NCBI RefSeq assembly: GCF_900187885.1
Contig: NZ_FYEK01000015.1
Span: forward strand, 1 to 40,377
Direction: 5' to 3'
Length of the DNA stretch: 40,377 nucleotides
Source of the DNA: Thermoflexus hugenholtzii JAD2
GTDB taxonomy: Bacteria > Chloroflexota > Anaerolineae > Thermoflexales > Thermoflexaceae
Positions 1 to 5,667 of this stretch are shown here, piece by piece. The notes under the pieces were generated by a model. That model did no database searches. It was given only the letters and a program-made list of their open reading frames with translations, and was not told the DNA's origin. The translations under genes and the position numbers were made by a program. How positions within the stretch are numbered: position 1 is the stretch's first letter; every line of letters begins with the position of its first letter.

Positions 1-420
1 GCCACCCGGCGCACCATCCCGTCCTTGTCCTGGAGGGCCTGGGTGAGGGCGGGGAGGGCCGGGGGGTCGCCGATGTTCCCCAGGGCCTCGGCTGCCGCCC
101 GGCGCACTTCCGCATCCTCATCTTGGAGGGCTCGGAGGAGGGCGGGGAGGGCCGGGGGGCCCATCTTCTCCAGGACCTCGGCTGCCGCCCGGCGCACCCC
201 CCCGTCCTCATCCTGGAGGGCCTGGGTGAGGGCGGGGAGGGCCGGGGGGTCGCCGATGTTCCCCAGGGCCTCGGCTGCCGCCCGGCGCACGTCCGCATCC
301 TCATCTTGGAGGGCTTGGAGGAGGGCGGGGAGGACCGGGGGGCCCATCTTCTCCAGGGCCTGCACCGCCGCCCGGCGCACGTCCGCATCCTTATCCTGGA
401 GGGCCCTGCGCAGCTCAGGG
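1..420 (-). repeat. Tandem HEAT-repeat coding units of 90-93 bp
   Basis: Four or more tandem coding repeats, each 90 or 93 bp (30 or 31 codons), alternate in a two-repeat super-unit of 183 bp. The 50 bases at 58-107 recur without change at 241-290. They encode HEAT helices inside the NACHT gene. Such DNA-level identity suggests recent duplication or gene conversion. The frame is kept throughout, so this is coding sequence and not a CRISPR array. Confidence 0.9.
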
Positions 421-1946
421 CCCAGGTGCTCCCATATCCCCTTGGCGTAGCCGCTCTCCGCGGCCAGCTCGGCGGTTAGGAACAGGTCGCGGCGCAGGAA
501 GCGCTCTTCCGGCGAGCGGGCGCGCAGGATCCTGCGCAGCAGGCCCAGGGCCTCCGCTTCGGGCAGCGAGCCGACCAGCAAGGCCAGCGGCTCGCGCCAC
601 TCCGGAAGATGCAGGCGCGGCCGCAGGAAGCGCCACGCCCGCCGGGCGTCCCGCTCCCATGCCTCCTTCAGGCGCAGGGCCACGAAATACTCCCGCAGCG
701 TCTGGTGGCTGAAGACGTAGCGGTAACGCACCCTTCCATCTTCCGCCTCCGGCAGGCGGGCGAGGAGGCCGGTCTGCTCCCGCAGGCGGCGCAGCCCCTC
801 GGCCGCCTCCTTATCGTCCTGCGCCACCCGGAAGGCTTGCAGCGCCTCGCGCAGATCCGCCTCTTCGTTCCCCCCGCCGATATGCAGGTGCCATGCCAGC
901 GCCTGGAGGGCCTGAAGGAAGCGCGGCTTTTCCTCCTCCTTCGCGCCGCGCCGTTTGGCGCGCTCCCAGGCCTCCTCCACCCACAGGCGGTAGAGGTCGG
1001 CGCGGCCCCGGGCGACCTCGCCGGTTTGGGCGTAATGCTGGGCGCTCAGGCGCAGGAGCAGGGGGTTATCCAGCAGGCGGCCCAGGGCCGGGTGGGCCCG
1101 CATCTGCTCCAGCAACCGCCGCGCCTGCGCCTCGGCCTCCTCATCGGTCCACTCGGGTTTCAGGGCAGCCAGCCAGCCGCGCAGGTAGGGCAGGGCTTCG
1201 CCTTCGGGGTGCTCAAAGGGCTTGAGGGTGTATTCGCGCAGCCCTCGCAGGGGTTGAAACCCGGCCGGGCGGGAGGCCAGGATCACCCATCCGGCCCCGC
1301 TGTCGGCGAAGCGCTGGATGCGCTCGCGCACGGCCCCGCGGAGGCCCTCCGGCACCTCGTCCAGCCCGTCCAGCAGGACGAGCAGGCCGAGGTCTTGTTG
1401 CCCGGCGCGCAGCAGCGCCTCCGCTTCGTCCTCGGGGCATTGTAGCCATTCGCGCACCTCCATGCGCAGGGCGTCCCACAGGGTCTCCTTCTCGGCGATG
1501 GGGTGGGCCCGGGCTTGCAGGTTCAGCAGGATCGGGACGTAGGGACGCTGGACCCTCAGCCGCGCGATGTGCCAGTTTTCCTCCGCGCGGGCGAAGCACA
1601 GCCCGATGAACCGCAGGGCGGTGGATTTCCCCGCCCCCGGCTCGCCCAGCAGGGCCAGGTTTTCTCTCTTCTCCAGCACCTCCTCCAGCGGGACCGGCGG
1701 CGGGGGCGGCTGGGGGGAAGGGGGCACGCCGGCGTGCTGAAAGCGCAACTCGGCCGGGTCGAGGTCGGGACGCGGCGGCTCGGTCCCCTTCGGTTCGGGT
1801 CGCTCCCGCGCCTGGAGCATGAAGAAGACGCGCTCCAGCGGCAGGCGGCGTTCCTCGCCGTGCACGGTGACTGTCAGGTATCGCCATTCCTCCGCGACGG
1901 CGCGCCGGTAACGCGCGATCAGGTCGTTCAGGGATTGTGCGCCCAT
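1..1946 (-). CDS. NACHT NTPase with C-terminal HEAT repeats (partial, C-terminus beyond left edge)
   Basis: STAND-class NTPase of the NACHT family, a signalling ATPase type used in bacterial immunity and regulation. About 648 residues are visible. Walker A GEPGAGKST lies at residues 101-109. The NACHT Walker B LLVLLDGLDEVPEG lies near 188-200, followed by ILASRPAGF near 222-230 (sensor 1). A winged-helix-type segment FSHQTLREYFVALRL precedes the repeats. The C-terminus, encoded at about 1-420, is a run of HEAT/PBS-lyase repeats of 30-31 residues with the core VRRAAAEAL; it runs off the window without a stop. The segment between the first 40 residues and Walker A is proline-rich. Start: ATG at 1946, although an in-frame ATG at 1967 adds seven residues; neither has a well-placed Shine-Dalgarno. 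It is the last visible gene of the operon starting at 5667, after the S24-like gene. The NACHT call is firm; a defence role is inference. Confidence 0.9.
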   Translation of the reverse strand, partial: MGAQSLNDLIARYRRAVAEEWRYLTVTVHGEERRLPLERVFFMLQARERPEPKGTEPPRPDLDPAELRFQHAGVPPSPQPPPPPVPLEEVLEKRENLALLGEPGAGKSTALRFIGLCFARAEENWHIARLRVQRPYVPILLNLQARAHPIAEKETLWDALRMEVREWLQCPEDEAEALLRAGQQDLGLLVLLDGLDEVPEGLRGAVRERIQRFADSGAGWVILASRPAGFQPLRGLREYTLKPFEHPEGEALPYLRGWLAALKPEWTDEEAEAQARRLLEQMRAHPALGRLLDNPLLLRLSAQHYAQTGEVARGRADLYRLWVEEAWERAKRRGAKEEEKPRFLQALQALAWHLHIGGGNEEADLREALQAFRVAQDDKEAAEGLRRLREQTGLLARLPEAEDGRVRYRYVFSHQTLREYFVALRLKEAWERDARRAWRFLRPRLHLPEWREPLALLVGSLPEAEALGLLRRILRARSPEERFLRRDLFLTAELAAESGYAKGIWEHLGPELRRALQDKDADVRRAAVQALEKMGPPVLPALLQALQDEDADVRRAAAEALGNIGDPPALPALTQALQDEDGGVRRAAAEVLEKMGPPALPALLRALQDEDAEVRRAAAEALGNIGDPPALPALTQALQDKDGMVRRV

Positions 1947-2013
1947 GCCTCCTTGGCCCCTTTCCATCCGATGCGGCTCGTCGGATCGGGCGGACGCCCC
2001 CTTCCCATGGCGA

Positions 2014-3156
2014 TTATAGCGATGCGGGGGGCTCTGGCTTGAGGATGGCCAGGACGGGGTAGAGCTCCGGGCGACCGGGCTCGATGGCGATCTCCTCGAA
2101 GGCCGGGTTCTCCGGCGAGAGAAACCATTTCCCGTTGCGGTAGTTCAGTCGCTTGATCAGGAAGGCCCGGTGGGCCTGGGTGTGGTAATCCTCCACCAGG
2201 ACGGCCAGCACCAGCCTCCCCCGCCACGCGCGCCACTCGTTCGGGTCCCGCGCCGCCGGCCCCGGGATCCGCCGCGCCAGGATCAGGTCCCCGGGCTCGA
2301 TGCCCGCACCCCGCATGCTCTCCCCCTCCACCCGGAGCACGATCAGCTCCTCCCGACGCGCCACCACTATCGGCGCCATATCCGCCTCCACATACACCCG
2401 ATACACCTGCTCCCCCACGCACAGTCGCTCGATTTGAACCTCCGCCGAATCCGAAAGGCGCTCCGCGGTCTGAGGGTCCAGGAACTGAAGGTCCCCCGCT
2501 TGAGGATGGGTGTCCGGGAGCAGGATGAGGGAGAGCAGGGCCAGGCGGGCGGGCCGGAGCGGGCCTCCCGGCGTCGAGATGGGCTCCGCCGGCGTCCTTT
2601 CCGGAGCCTCCTCCCGTGGAGGCTCCGCGGCAGCGAGGTGTCGATCGCGGAGGATCTCCCCGATGATCTCCCGCGCCCAACGGAGCCATTCCGCCAGCTC
2701 CGGCGATGTCATGCCCTGCAGCGCGGCCGCCCGCTGCCGGTCCTGCAGCAGCCGCTCCGCCCGCCGCGCCAGCTCCAGGGCCCATGCCGGATCCTCTCTG
2801 CGCAGCCAGAAGGCCCCCAACAGCGCCGCGAGCGCCTCCGCCAGGGCCGGGCCGTGAAACCGAAGGGCGCGGAGGATCTCCGTCAGGGGCTGCCGCAGGG
2901 CGCCCGGGGGCAGATACCCCGCCCACCGGTCCAGGGCCATCCCGACCAGCTGCGCCCCGATCCGACCGGGCATGGCCGCCCCCGGCCCGGCCAGGGAGTC
3001 CACCGGCACGGACAGCAGGAGATGGCAGAGGGCGCGCAGCCGCTCCGGATCCAGCGGGTCCTGATCCAGCAGCGCCCGGAGCGCCTGCAGGGCCGGATGC
3101 CCGCCTTCATTCAAGGTCCGAATCAGATGGGAAAGCAGGCGACGCTCCTGCTCCAC
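2014..3156 (-). CDS. LexA/S24-like serine peptidase domain protein lacking an HTH
   Basis: 380 residues. The C-terminal part (about 255-372) matches the S24 (LexA/UmuD/CI) fold: VEGESMRGAGIEPGDLILARR holds the nucleophile Ser280, and AFLIKRL holds the paired Lys335, followed by the usual LSPENPAFEEI strand. The first 210 residues are helical, rich in Ala, Leu and Arg, and contain no helix-turn-helix I can recognise, so this is not LexA itself. No Ala-Gly self-cleavage site is evident in front of the domain. Start: GTG at 3156, with AGGAGG eight bases upstream, inside the end of the preceding SPFH gene (50-base overlap), which suggests translational coupling. The TAA stop overlaps a TATAAT. 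I infer a protease or peptide-binding regulator working with the neighbouring NACHT and SPFH proteins; the substrate is unknown. Confidence 0.8.
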   Translation of the reverse strand: MEQERRLLSHLIRTLNEGGHPALQALRALLDQDPLDPERLRALCHLLLSVPVDSLAGPGAAMPGRIGAQLVGMALDRWAGYLPPGALRQPLTEILRALRFHGPALAEALAALLGAFWLRREDPAWALELARRAERLLQDRQRAAALQGMTSPELAEWLRWAREIIGEILRDRHLAAAEPPREEAPERTPAEPISTPGGPLRPARLALLSLILLPDTHPQAGDLQFLDPQTAERLSDSAEVQIERLCVGEQVYRVYVEADMAPIVVARREELIVLRVEGESMRGAGIEPGDLILARRIPGPAARDPNEWRAWRGRLVLAVLVEDYHTQAHRAFLIKRLNYRNGKWFLSPENPAFEEIAIEPGRPELYPVLAILKPEPPASL

Positions 3157-4486
3157 CGGACGCGCCTCCTGTGTCGCCCTGGGGGCTCTGTATGATCCGC
3201 TGCAGGTGATGGAACAGCTCCAGCAACTCCTTGGGGGTCAGCAGGGCCATCTCCGGCTGGGCCCAGTGCTGCACCAGCTCCACCAGCCGCAGGAGCAGGC
3301 GATGAAGCCCCCGCTGGGGGTCCTCCGCGGACCACTCCTCGCGGACCACCGCGGTGATGGCCTCCAGCAGCTCCCGCTGGCCCATGGCCCGGGCCAGCTC
3401 CCGCTGGCGCAGCTGCTCCCGCACCGCCCGGGATTGCATGTGCACCACCCACCCCCGCCAGGGCACCTGCCAGTGCTCCAACCACGCCTGGCGGATCAGC
3501 GGCTCCACTTCCGGCCGGGGCATGGGCGGGGTGAAGGCGAAGTGCAGGATCTGCGCGTTCCACCGCGCCGCCTGCTCCTCCAGCTCGGCGCGGATCTCCT
3601 CCCGGATCTGCTCCCAGCGCACCGGGATCGGCGCGTCCTCCGGGGGTCGCTCCGGGATCCCCCGCGTGTTTCGCTGCTCTGCAGGCTCCCCGGCGAACCG
3701 GGGCGGCTGGGCCTGGGCACCTTCCGGGCTGGTGTAAGGGGACCACAGCTCATCGAACCACAGGGTGCCCAGCCGGCGGGCCAGGCGGTTTCGGGCCTCG
3801 TCGGCCAGCTCGCCGGCCCAATCCACGCCATAGCCCCGGTCCCGGGAGCCGGTGTCCAGGGCGTAGGCCATGCGGATCAACCGGGCCTCCCCGGCCGCGT
3901 CCCCGGGCTCCCAGCGCAGCCGCGCGCCGAGCTCCAGCCGCGCCTGCACCGGCAGCCCATCCTGGGTCCATGCGTTCACCTGCCGGCGGCGGATCTGCGG
4001 ACGAAGATCCAGGACCAGGGCCGGGCGTTCGAAGGGCCTCAGGCGATGTTCCCCCGGACCGATCAGCCGGACGAAGACACCGCCCCGCTCCAGCAGGACC
4101 AGGCAGCTCTCGTGCACGACCAGAGTGCCCGGGCCGCCGATCCGGACCAGGGGGGACGTGCGGGTCGCTGCGGTGAGGTCCCCGTCCCGCGCGTGGCCCA
4201 CCGGGGTTCGCGCGTGGGGGAAGAACAGCGCCCGCAGGAGGAAGCCGAGGGCCTCACCCCAGCGGACCTGATACATCCGCGCGACGAAGTTGGAGGCCTG
4301 AACCAGCATGAAGGCGGCGATCGCTCCTTCCATCAGAAGGCCCAGCCCGCAGCCGAGCCCCAAGATCTCCCCGATCCGCTCCCCCCGCCATGCGCCGATC
4401 AGGCATGCGCCGATCAGGAGGGGGATCAGAAGCAGGCCGGGCAGGCCGGCGGCGAAGACGATGGCCACCCGAAGGAGGAGCTCCAT
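3107..4486 (-). CDS. Membrane-anchored SPFH/band-7-like protein (paralog 2)
   Basis: 459 residues. Two hydrophobic N-terminal segments (about 5-33 and 43-63) are followed by a region that reads like an SPFH/band-7 (stomatin/prohibitin) domain: LERGGVFVRLIGPGEHRL (about 132-149), LVLDLRPQ (157-164) and TQDGLPVQARLEL (174-186). The C-terminal half is helical and charged, ending in a low-complexity Gly/Ala/Ser tail. The same motif order occurs in the gene immediately upstream, so the two are tandem paralogs. Start: ATG at 4486, eight bases after the upstream stop with GAGG in front; a GTG at 4498 overlapping that stop is an alternative. SPFH proteins form membrane microdomain scaffolds and often sit beside proteases. 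The family call rests on motif reading only. Confidence 0.7.
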   Translation of the reverse strand: MELLLRVAIVFAAGLPGLLLIPLLIGACLIGAWRGERIGEILGLGCGLGLLMEGAIAAFMLVQASNFVARMYQVRWGEALGFLLRALFFPHARTPVGHARDGDLTAATRTSPLVRIGGPGTLVVHESCLVLLERGGVFVRLIGPGEHRLRPFERPALVLDLRPQIRRRQVNAWTQDGLPVQARLELGARLRWEPGDAAGEARLIRMAYALDTGSRDRGYGVDWAGELADEARNRLARRLGTLWFDELWSPYTSPEGAQAQPPRFAGEPAEQRNTRGIPERPPEDAPIPVRWEQIREEIRAELEEQAARWNAQILHFAFTPPMPRPEVEPLIRQAWLEHWQVPWRGWVVHMQSRAVREQLRQRELARAMGQRELLEAITAVVREEWSAEDPQRGLHRLLLRLVELVQHWAQPEMALLTPKELLELFHHLQRIIQSPQGDTGGASGGAGASPAFPSDSDLE

Positions 4487-4494
4487 CAGCGCCC

Positions 4495-5667
4495 TCACGG
4501 GCTCCCTCCTTGCAGATACGTGCGGAGGTGGTTCAATTCCTCCGGCAGCAGCAACCCGCTCTTGCGGACCGCCGTGTCCAGCGTCTCCAGGAAGTGCAGG
4601 AGGATGAGATTGGGGGAGAGGGCGTCGCGGCCGCTCAGCACCTCCCGGAGGGCCTGGAGGGTCTCCATCTGGGCGGCATGACGGGCGCGGGCGTATTCCA
4701 GCAGCAGCTCGGATTCTGCCAGGCCGATCCAGCGGGCCAGCCGGGCGGCCCACTGGCTGCGCCAGACCTCCACCCGCTGGCGCCGGGCTTCCTCGGGCAC
4801 CTCCGTCAGGGCGAGACGCAGTCGGTCCAGCCGGATCCCGGCCCGGCGCAGCTCCGGGACCAGCGTCCTCTGGATCTCTTGGGCCAGCCGGGCGAGGGGC
4901 GGATCCGGCCGCTCTGTTCCTTCCCGAGCCAGCCCGAACAGCTCATCGAAGAGGCGGTTGCCGATTTGGAGGGCAAGCTCCTCCCGGGCCCGGTGGGCGG
5001 CCAGCTCGAACCAGTGGAGCATCCGATCCTCATCGACGCGGGCGGCCCGGAGGGCCTGGGCGATGGACCGGGCGACGCGCGGGGCCGGATAGAAATAGGG
5101 GGACAATCCCCGCTCGACGGGAGGGGGACGCTGGGCGGCGAAGGCGGTGACGGTGCGGATCTGGAATCCAAGGGAGAGCCCGTCCTGGGTGCGGACCGTC
5201 ACCGGATCCGGGTCGCTTCGGGGATAGCGCTGCGGGCGGAGATCTATGAAGGCGGTGATCTGCTCTCCCTCTCGCACCCACGTCAGCCCGGGGCCGGCGA
5301 TGTGGAGGAAGCCGACTCCCCCCTCCACGGCCAGGGCGCTCCGGGCGTCCATCAGCCAGAGCCCGGGCCCCTGCCGGGGCTCCATGGAAGCGCGCGCCTG
5401 GCCCGCGTCCACCACCCCCAGGCTGCGCAGCCGGCCGAAGATCCAGGCGGCGAACGCCCGCCGCACAAGGCCGGCCTCGTGCGGCGCAGCGGGAGCTAAG
5501 GCAGGGAGGAGGAAGAAGAAAAGGAAAACCCCATACAGGATCATCGCGAGGAGCCAGAGGGCGAACAGGAACCCGGGGATCTTCGCCCAGCGGAGCCATC
5601 CGATCCCGCTCAGAAGCCCGACGAGGAGCAGCCCCAGCCATGCCCCGATTCTGCCTCTCCGCAGCAT
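4495..5667 (-). CDS. Membrane-anchored SPFH/band-7-like protein (paralog 1)
   Basis: 390 residues. Two transmembrane segments (about 8-26 and 31-57) precede an SPFH-like region: VEGGVGFLHIAGPGLTWV (114-131), AFIDLRPQ (139-146) and VRTQDGLSLGFQIRTVTAF (158-176). The remainder is helical, including stretches rich in Glu, Arg and Leu (about 255-350), consistent with coiled-coil assembly. It is the first gene of the SPFH-SPFH-S24-NACHT operon. Start: ATG at 5667, chosen because GGGGAGG lies six bases upstream and the hydrophobic segment follows at once; a start at 5766 would add an arginine-rich stretch with no domain. It is probably an inner-membrane scaffold that pairs with paralog 2. Confidence 0.7.
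   Translation of the reverse strand: MLRRGRIGAWLGLLLVGLLSGIGWLRWAKIPGFLFALWLLAMILYGVFLFFFLLPALAPAAPHEAGLVRRAFAAWIFGRLRSLGVVDAGQARASMEPRQGPGLWLMDARSALAVEGGVGFLHIAGPGLTWVREGEQITAFIDLRPQRYPRSDPDPVTVRTQDGLSLGFQIRTVTAFAAQRPPPVERGLSPYFYPAPRVARSIAQALRAARVDEDRMLHWFELAAHRAREELALQIGNRLFDELFGLAREGTERPDPPLARLAQEIQRTLVPELRRAGIRLDRLRLALTEVPEEARRQRVEVWRSQWAARLARWIGLAESELLLEYARARHAAQMETLQALREVLSGRDALSPNLILLHFLETLDTAVRKSGLLLPEELNHLRTYLQGGSP

Follow-up and report, generated by a model that had tools for sequence, protein, structure and literature searches.

A conserved SPFH-SPFH-S24 gene unit of Anaerolineae, a candidate membrane signalling device

SPFH assemblies occur in all domains of life, and their dealings with proteases in bacteria are little understood. 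The SPFH operons of prokaryotes were surveyed in 2009, and the only partners described were NfeD within the operons and FtsH by interaction (PMC2636767). In the stomatin-NfeD operon PH1511-PH1510, the protease PH1510 cleaves the C-terminus of stomatin (PMC13086221), and every heteromeric SPFH complex with a solved structure is built from two alternating paralogs (PMC12624060). Here we describe a locus of Thermoflexus hugenholtzii JAD2 in which two SPFH genes are followed by a gene for a predicted LexA-type autoprotease of the S24 family and by a gene for a NACHT nucleoside triphosphatase (NTPase) with HEAT repeats. The locus lies at one edge of the window, which is the whole stretch of 40,377 nucleotides that was analysed (contig NZ_FYEK01000015.1, positions 1 to 40,377; contig C15). 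The pairing of SPFH proteins with proteases is already known; the variants new here are the LexA-type partner and the exchangeable NTPases. No paper dealing with SPFH and peptidase S24 together was found in open full text, subscription papers and preprints being outside the search. The SPFH-SPFH-S24 unit appears to be a membrane signalling device not described before, whose function is predicted.

The four genes lie on the minus strand, from position 5667 down to the window edge, in the order SPFH1 (4495..5667), SPFH2 (3107..4486), S24 (2014..3156) and NACHT/HEAT (3..1967). SPFH1 and SPFH2 are separated by 8 bases (4487-4494), SPFH2 and S24 overlap by 50 bases (3107-3156), and 46 bases lie between S24 and NACHT. 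The first-pass annotation, made from the letters alone, had reported four co-directional genes with this gap and this overlap; all four reading frames were confirmed, and both distances are exact. Five further genomes of the genus keep the overlap between SPFH2 and S24 at precisely 50 bases. The neighbours of the SPFH genes are S24, NACHT and a divergent rbfA-like gene.

The conserved unit, as read from gene neighbourhoods, is three genes with their order kept: SPFH1, SPFH2 and the (TPR-like) S24 gene, with near-zero gaps or overlaps of at most 70 bases, in several Anaerolineae families. An S24 profile was searched against 396 Anaerolineae genomes and the neighbourhoods were then read; in this search, based on the S24 profile only, the TPR-S24 gene adjoined or was fused to SPFH in 22 of 25 cases. 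GTDB contigs were scanned separately with an SPFH2 profile, built from a close six-row alignment; this gave 24 loci, some on contigs from genomes already counted, with S24 directly downstream in most. Altogether 35 TPR-S24 genes were collected. Thirty follow SPFH2 directly, at distances of -70 to +171 bases; in L118 the gene is fused to SPFH2, and in L113 a TIR gene parts the two. The three exceptions are a gene standing alone (L106), one with a convergent SPFH gene (L116) and one fused to an ATPase (L114). Among 400 Chloroflexota genomes, full-length TPR-S24 proteins were found only in Anaerolineae. The conserved order, the overlaps and the gene fusion support a functional link between the two SPFH proteins and the S24 protein.

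Outside the window's genus, the core often neighbours psuG (pseudouridine glycosidase), PfkB and PHP genes and is sometimes followed by another SPFH pair that has no S24; this synteny is present in L135, L139, L140, L141, L149, L151 and others, from several Anaerolineae families. The isolated TPR-S24 gene of G333 (L106 11969-13105), without SPFH neighbours, is nearer to the S24 of the window than the copies of four congeners are; this hints at gene transfer. Two candidates for the core in other phyla were rejected. L138, filed under Desulfobacterales and carrying SPFH-SPFH-S24-psuG, is probably mis-binned, since the adjoining psuG is Anaerolineae-like. The contig from an Ignavibacterium metagenome-assembled genome (L153 3994-8418) has an SPFH pair with ORC/CDC6-like NTPase genes on both sides and no S24.

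The assignment of SPFH1 (390 amino acids) and SPFH2 (459 amino acids) to the SPFH/Band 7 superfamily holds on profiles and on the structure model. SPFH2 reaches 25.2 bits with the Pfam model Band_7, above the cut-off of 23.6; SPFH1 scores 17.8 bits, below the cut-off, and its assignment was recovered by family profiles. The family profiles of both match stomatins or HflC, and their alignment to each other (hhalign E 9e-41 over 286 columns) identifies them as paralogs. The SPFH2 model matches prohibitin, erlin, HflK/C, QmcA, stomatin and flotillin, with Z values of 10-13 for prohibitin, HflK/C and stomatin. According to hydropathy and the secondary structure of the model, SPFH2 presents the usual SPFH order of membrane helices (about 1-36 and 41-64), SPFH domain (about 120-325) and a long coiled-coil helix (329-384). 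SPFH1 likewise has two membrane helices predicted by hydropathy near its N-terminus (residues 7-25 and 27-62), so that the earlier description of two membrane-anchored SPFH paralogs stands. The SPFH part is probably on the cytosolic side of the membrane. As for the curated HflK/HflC models, no NCBIfam family was matched at E <= 1 by either protein.

The third protein (P0003, 380 amino acids) is, by its profiles and its model, a LexA-type autoprotease whose stalk is helical and TPR-like, with self-cleavage predicted. The helical N-terminus covers residues 1-175 approximately, and the LexA/UmuD-type Ser-Lys protease domain residues 200-378. Peptidase_S24 scores 35.6 bits (cut-off 23.3), and the family profile matches LexA, UmuD and TPR proteins, with LexA/UmuD at 5e-8. 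LexA, UmuD and lambda CI are the closest folds of the model (LexA C-domain, Z 9.8; CI, Z 8.7). The N-terminus matches TPR profiles and not helix-turn-helix (HTH) profiles, which bears out the HTH-less protease of the first-pass annotation; there is no winged HTH, the LexA repressor model TIGR00498 gives only 18.2 bits against a cut-off of 110.95, and hydropathy indicates no membrane helix.

The predicted scissile pair of the LexA-type motif, Ala220-Gly221, is encoded at 2494..2499, the predicted catalytic Ser280 (motif GESM) at 2317..2319 and the predicted catalytic Lys335 (motif IKRL) at 2152..2154, all on the minus strand. In the 34 full-length TPR-S24 members the lysine is invariant, the serine and the scissile alanine are each kept in 33, the three residues occur together in 33, and 27 members have Ala-Gly as the pair. 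The single member without the serine (L137) is also without Ala-Gly, and this joint loss is what self-cleavage predicts.

The window copy of the NACHT gene encodes the first 655 amino acids and continues past the contig end, as base 1 of the window is the contig end and falls within the HEAT array. A Walker A motif, GEPGAGKST (residues 108-116; 1620..1646, minus strand), was read from the translation. The absent C-terminal end, which the first-pass annotation had suggested seeking to the left, lies at the start of contig C72 of the same genome, G000 (L006 2-529). In G208, of the same genus, the whole locus is in one contig with the same flanking genes, and the protein is intact at 1079 amino acids. 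The NACHT profile scores 18.7 bits in the window copy, below the cut-off, and 31.5 bits in the G208 ortholog, above the cut-off of 26.7; the HEAT repeats are far above theirs, and the naming of a NACHT NTPase with HEAT repeats is thereby sustained. The complete protein has two membrane helices at its C-terminal end. Directly downstream of the NACHT gene in contig C72 (L006 654-1214) there is a gene that by eye resembles a REP-associated Y1-type transposase, with no Pfam match; a shorter relic of it occurs at the same place in G208.

The first-pass annotation had linked all four genes in function and had made their neighbourhood in related genomes the point to check. The link is supported for SPFH1, SPFH2 and S24, which remain neighbours, but not for NACHT, which is not adjacent in most relatives. 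The four-gene unit was rejected as a conserved system, since the adjacency of NACHT to the core is limited to three closely related species, G000, G208 and G455; in four congeners the core has different neighbours and no NACHT beside it. The next closest NACHT homologs (57 and 54% identity) have no SPFH genes near them on their contigs. Genomes of the genus have 3 to 7 NACHT-profile matches each, so a chance adjacency to the core would be uncommon, but this is a single event. By this distribution, the NACHT gene is a clade-specific fourth gene, added to the core.

The proposal of an NTPase partner gains support from another side, since on the evidence of gene arrangement other STAND-like NTPases joined the core independently of NACHT. 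The order KAP NTPase-SPFH1-SPFH2-S24 occurs in two genomes of another family (L107 4658-10127 and L109 4037-9509), where KAP and SPFH1 overlap by 4 bases. In L147, an ORC/CDC6-like NTPase gene comes after SPFH1-SPFH2-S24 in the same orientation. In G348 (L114 10475-13054), one protein of 859 amino acids combines an ATPase, TPR repeats and a complete S24 domain with AAGEPIL, serine and lysine. In addition, in G574 (L113 8670-12503) SPFH2 and S24 flank a TIR-domain gene that shares their strand, and psuG follows. The NTPase label requires three changes on the S24 tree versus 5.6 in shuffles, a test limited by few sequences and by near-copies. The partnership of NTPases with the core is likely, and is graded no higher because the sequences are few, some are near-copies, and P-loop genes are common.

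Then, we propose that the locus is a membrane-scaffolded proteolytic switch, formed by an SPFH scaffold, a latent self-cleaving S24 protein and, in some lineages, an NTPase sensor, and we consider this reading evenly poised between right and wrong. The gene order, the folds and the catalytic and scissile residues that it uses are those described above, as read from the sequences. For cage formation, docking, cleavage, trigger and output, we infer the following course. SPFH1 and SPFH2, as membrane-anchored paralogs, would probably take alternate places in a common ring or dome, like HflK/HflC and prohibitin 1/2, an arrangement suggested by the alternation of two paralogs in the solved complexes (PMC12624060). 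The S24 protein may dock on this scaffold via its helical/TPR part. Its LexA-type domain would cut its own chain at Ala220-Gly221 using Ser280 and Lys335, freeing the TPR part from the protease domain, in response to a trigger other than the SOS promoter system. A STAND-type NTPase, in this locus the NACHT-HEAT protein with its C-terminal membrane helices, could join in some lineages as sensor or clamp, and NTP-driven assembly at the membrane might provoke the cleavage of S24. More tentatively, and rather doubtful as yet, a heteromeric SPFH cage would gate RecA-independent LexA-type self-cleavage, with NACHT, KAP and ORC/CDC6-like proteins as interchangeable plug-in sensors of an inflammasome-like membrane relay.

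Some observations weigh against the switch. The model of the S24 protein has a mean predicted local distance difference test score (pLDDT) of 64.7 overall, and its N-terminal half is of modest confidence. In two relatives, G192 and G144, the S24 domains are degenerate or unrecognisable, and G455 kept SPFH1, SPFH2 and NACHT but lost S24. Most core copies are without an obvious NTPase neighbour, which indicates that the NTPase is not obligatory.

A role in membrane protein quality control, similar to HflK/C-FtsH, would have S24 cutting other membrane-associated substrates or the SPFH tails, with NACHT as an unrelated neighbour. SPFH proteins are repeatedly paired with proteases, as in HflK/C-FtsH and stomatin with the NfeD/ClpP-type PH1510 (PMC2636767, PMC13086221), and the core is vertically kept, as expected of a housekeeping function. 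The S24 domain, however, belongs to the LexA type, whose members cleave themselves, and the protein carries a conserved Ala-Gly site of its own, unlike a trans-acting protease; NTPases also join the core repeatedly and independently. We regard this role as unlikely.

Conflict systems typically have partners such as NACHT, KAP (QatA/PifA-like) and TIR proteins, and for this reason antiphage defence, which had been raised at first, keeps some probability. The NACHT-HEAT protein would sense a phage product, S24 would be unleashed, and the SPFH proteins would execute or confine an abortive response directed at the membrane. In L107 the KAP partner matches the PADLOC models PDC-S20, PifA and QatA, the TIR protein of L113 stands between SPFH2 and S24, and proteins with NACHT and repeats have been proven to act as antiphage receptors (bNACHT25, PMC12169576). 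Against this, PADLOC defence models matched no SPFH or S24 protein, and the matches of the NACHT protein were to HEAT-repeat or generic P-loop models only; it does not reach the curated antiphage NACHT model (NCBIfam EruA, 36.1 bits against a cut-off of 1000). The core is chromosomal and vertically kept in most Anaerolineae, at a stable locus near psuG, PfkB and PHP in several families and not in islands, and the four congeners lack NACHT beside it. No phage with a relative of the core was found in viral contigs, where one weak match to a phage concerned S24 only, and a phage or mobile origin of the core was rejected on these grounds. Defence finds no direct support in these results, and we regard this reading, too, as unlikely.

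A switch linked to SOS, in which activated RecA would bind S24 as with UmuD and LexA and cleavage would signal DNA damage to the membrane, agrees with LexA, UmuD and CI being the closest folds and RecA their known trigger, but it is very improbable, and SOS control of the operon is itself unlikely, given that the lexA promoters of the genus carry a clear box CGAACAnATGTTCG, that no box of this type is found upstream of SPFH1 in the window or in seven relatives, and that every genome of the genus has a separate LexA. A second LexA-like gene of G000 (contig C8, 4057-4698), beside a weak NACHT-profile match, was discarded as a relative of the locus because this neighbour is an unrelated FtsK-like translocase. 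The pair of LexA-like HTH-S24 and FtsK-like translocase (L190 4057-5782) is conserved in the genus and is perhaps a mobile-element remnant.

For the proposed switch, the operon of a conserved SPFH duo and a LexA-type autoprotease would supply a partner, a cleavage site and individually mutable catalytic residues. It would set the self-cleavage chemistry of LexA/UmuD at the membrane, outside DNA-damage control, and would tie it to NACHT, KAP and TIR proteins, which are usually read as immune components.

Compared with HflK/HflC and FtsH, the locus shares tandem SPFH paralogs, N-terminal membrane anchors, an expected alternating assembly and a link to proteolysis. It differs in the lack of a match to the curated models, in the SPFH side, which is probably cytosolic here, and in the partner gene, a LexA-type autoprotease instead of the AAA protease FtsH. 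The stomatin-NfeD operons are alike in joining an SPFH gene and a serine protease in one operon; here, in contrast, there are two SPFH genes, no NfeD or ClpP domain and no NfeD homolog next to the SPFH genes in the window neighbourhood, and the protease has the S24 fold, a Ser-Lys dyad and its own Ala-Gly site. With UmuD, LexA and lambda CI the third protein has in common the S24 fold, the Ser-Lys dyad and a scissile bond of Ala/Cys-Gly type ahead of the domain, whereas its N-terminus is helical/TPR and not an HTH or a short arm, no SOS box is present, and the gene is in an operon with membrane scaffolds.

The NACHT protein resembles bNACHT and other STAND antiphage receptors in its NACHT NTPase with a repeat array, but it has C-terminal membrane helices after the HEAT repeats and an adjacent SPFH/S24 core, and no curated antiphage model is reached. 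The conflict proteins of the KAP group (QatA, PifA) are comparable in that KAP is the NTPase partner in L107 and L109, as NACHT is here; the partners are the SPFH pair and TPR-S24, not Qat genes, and KAP is found upstream of SPFH1 in those two loci, while NACHT is downstream of S24 in the window.

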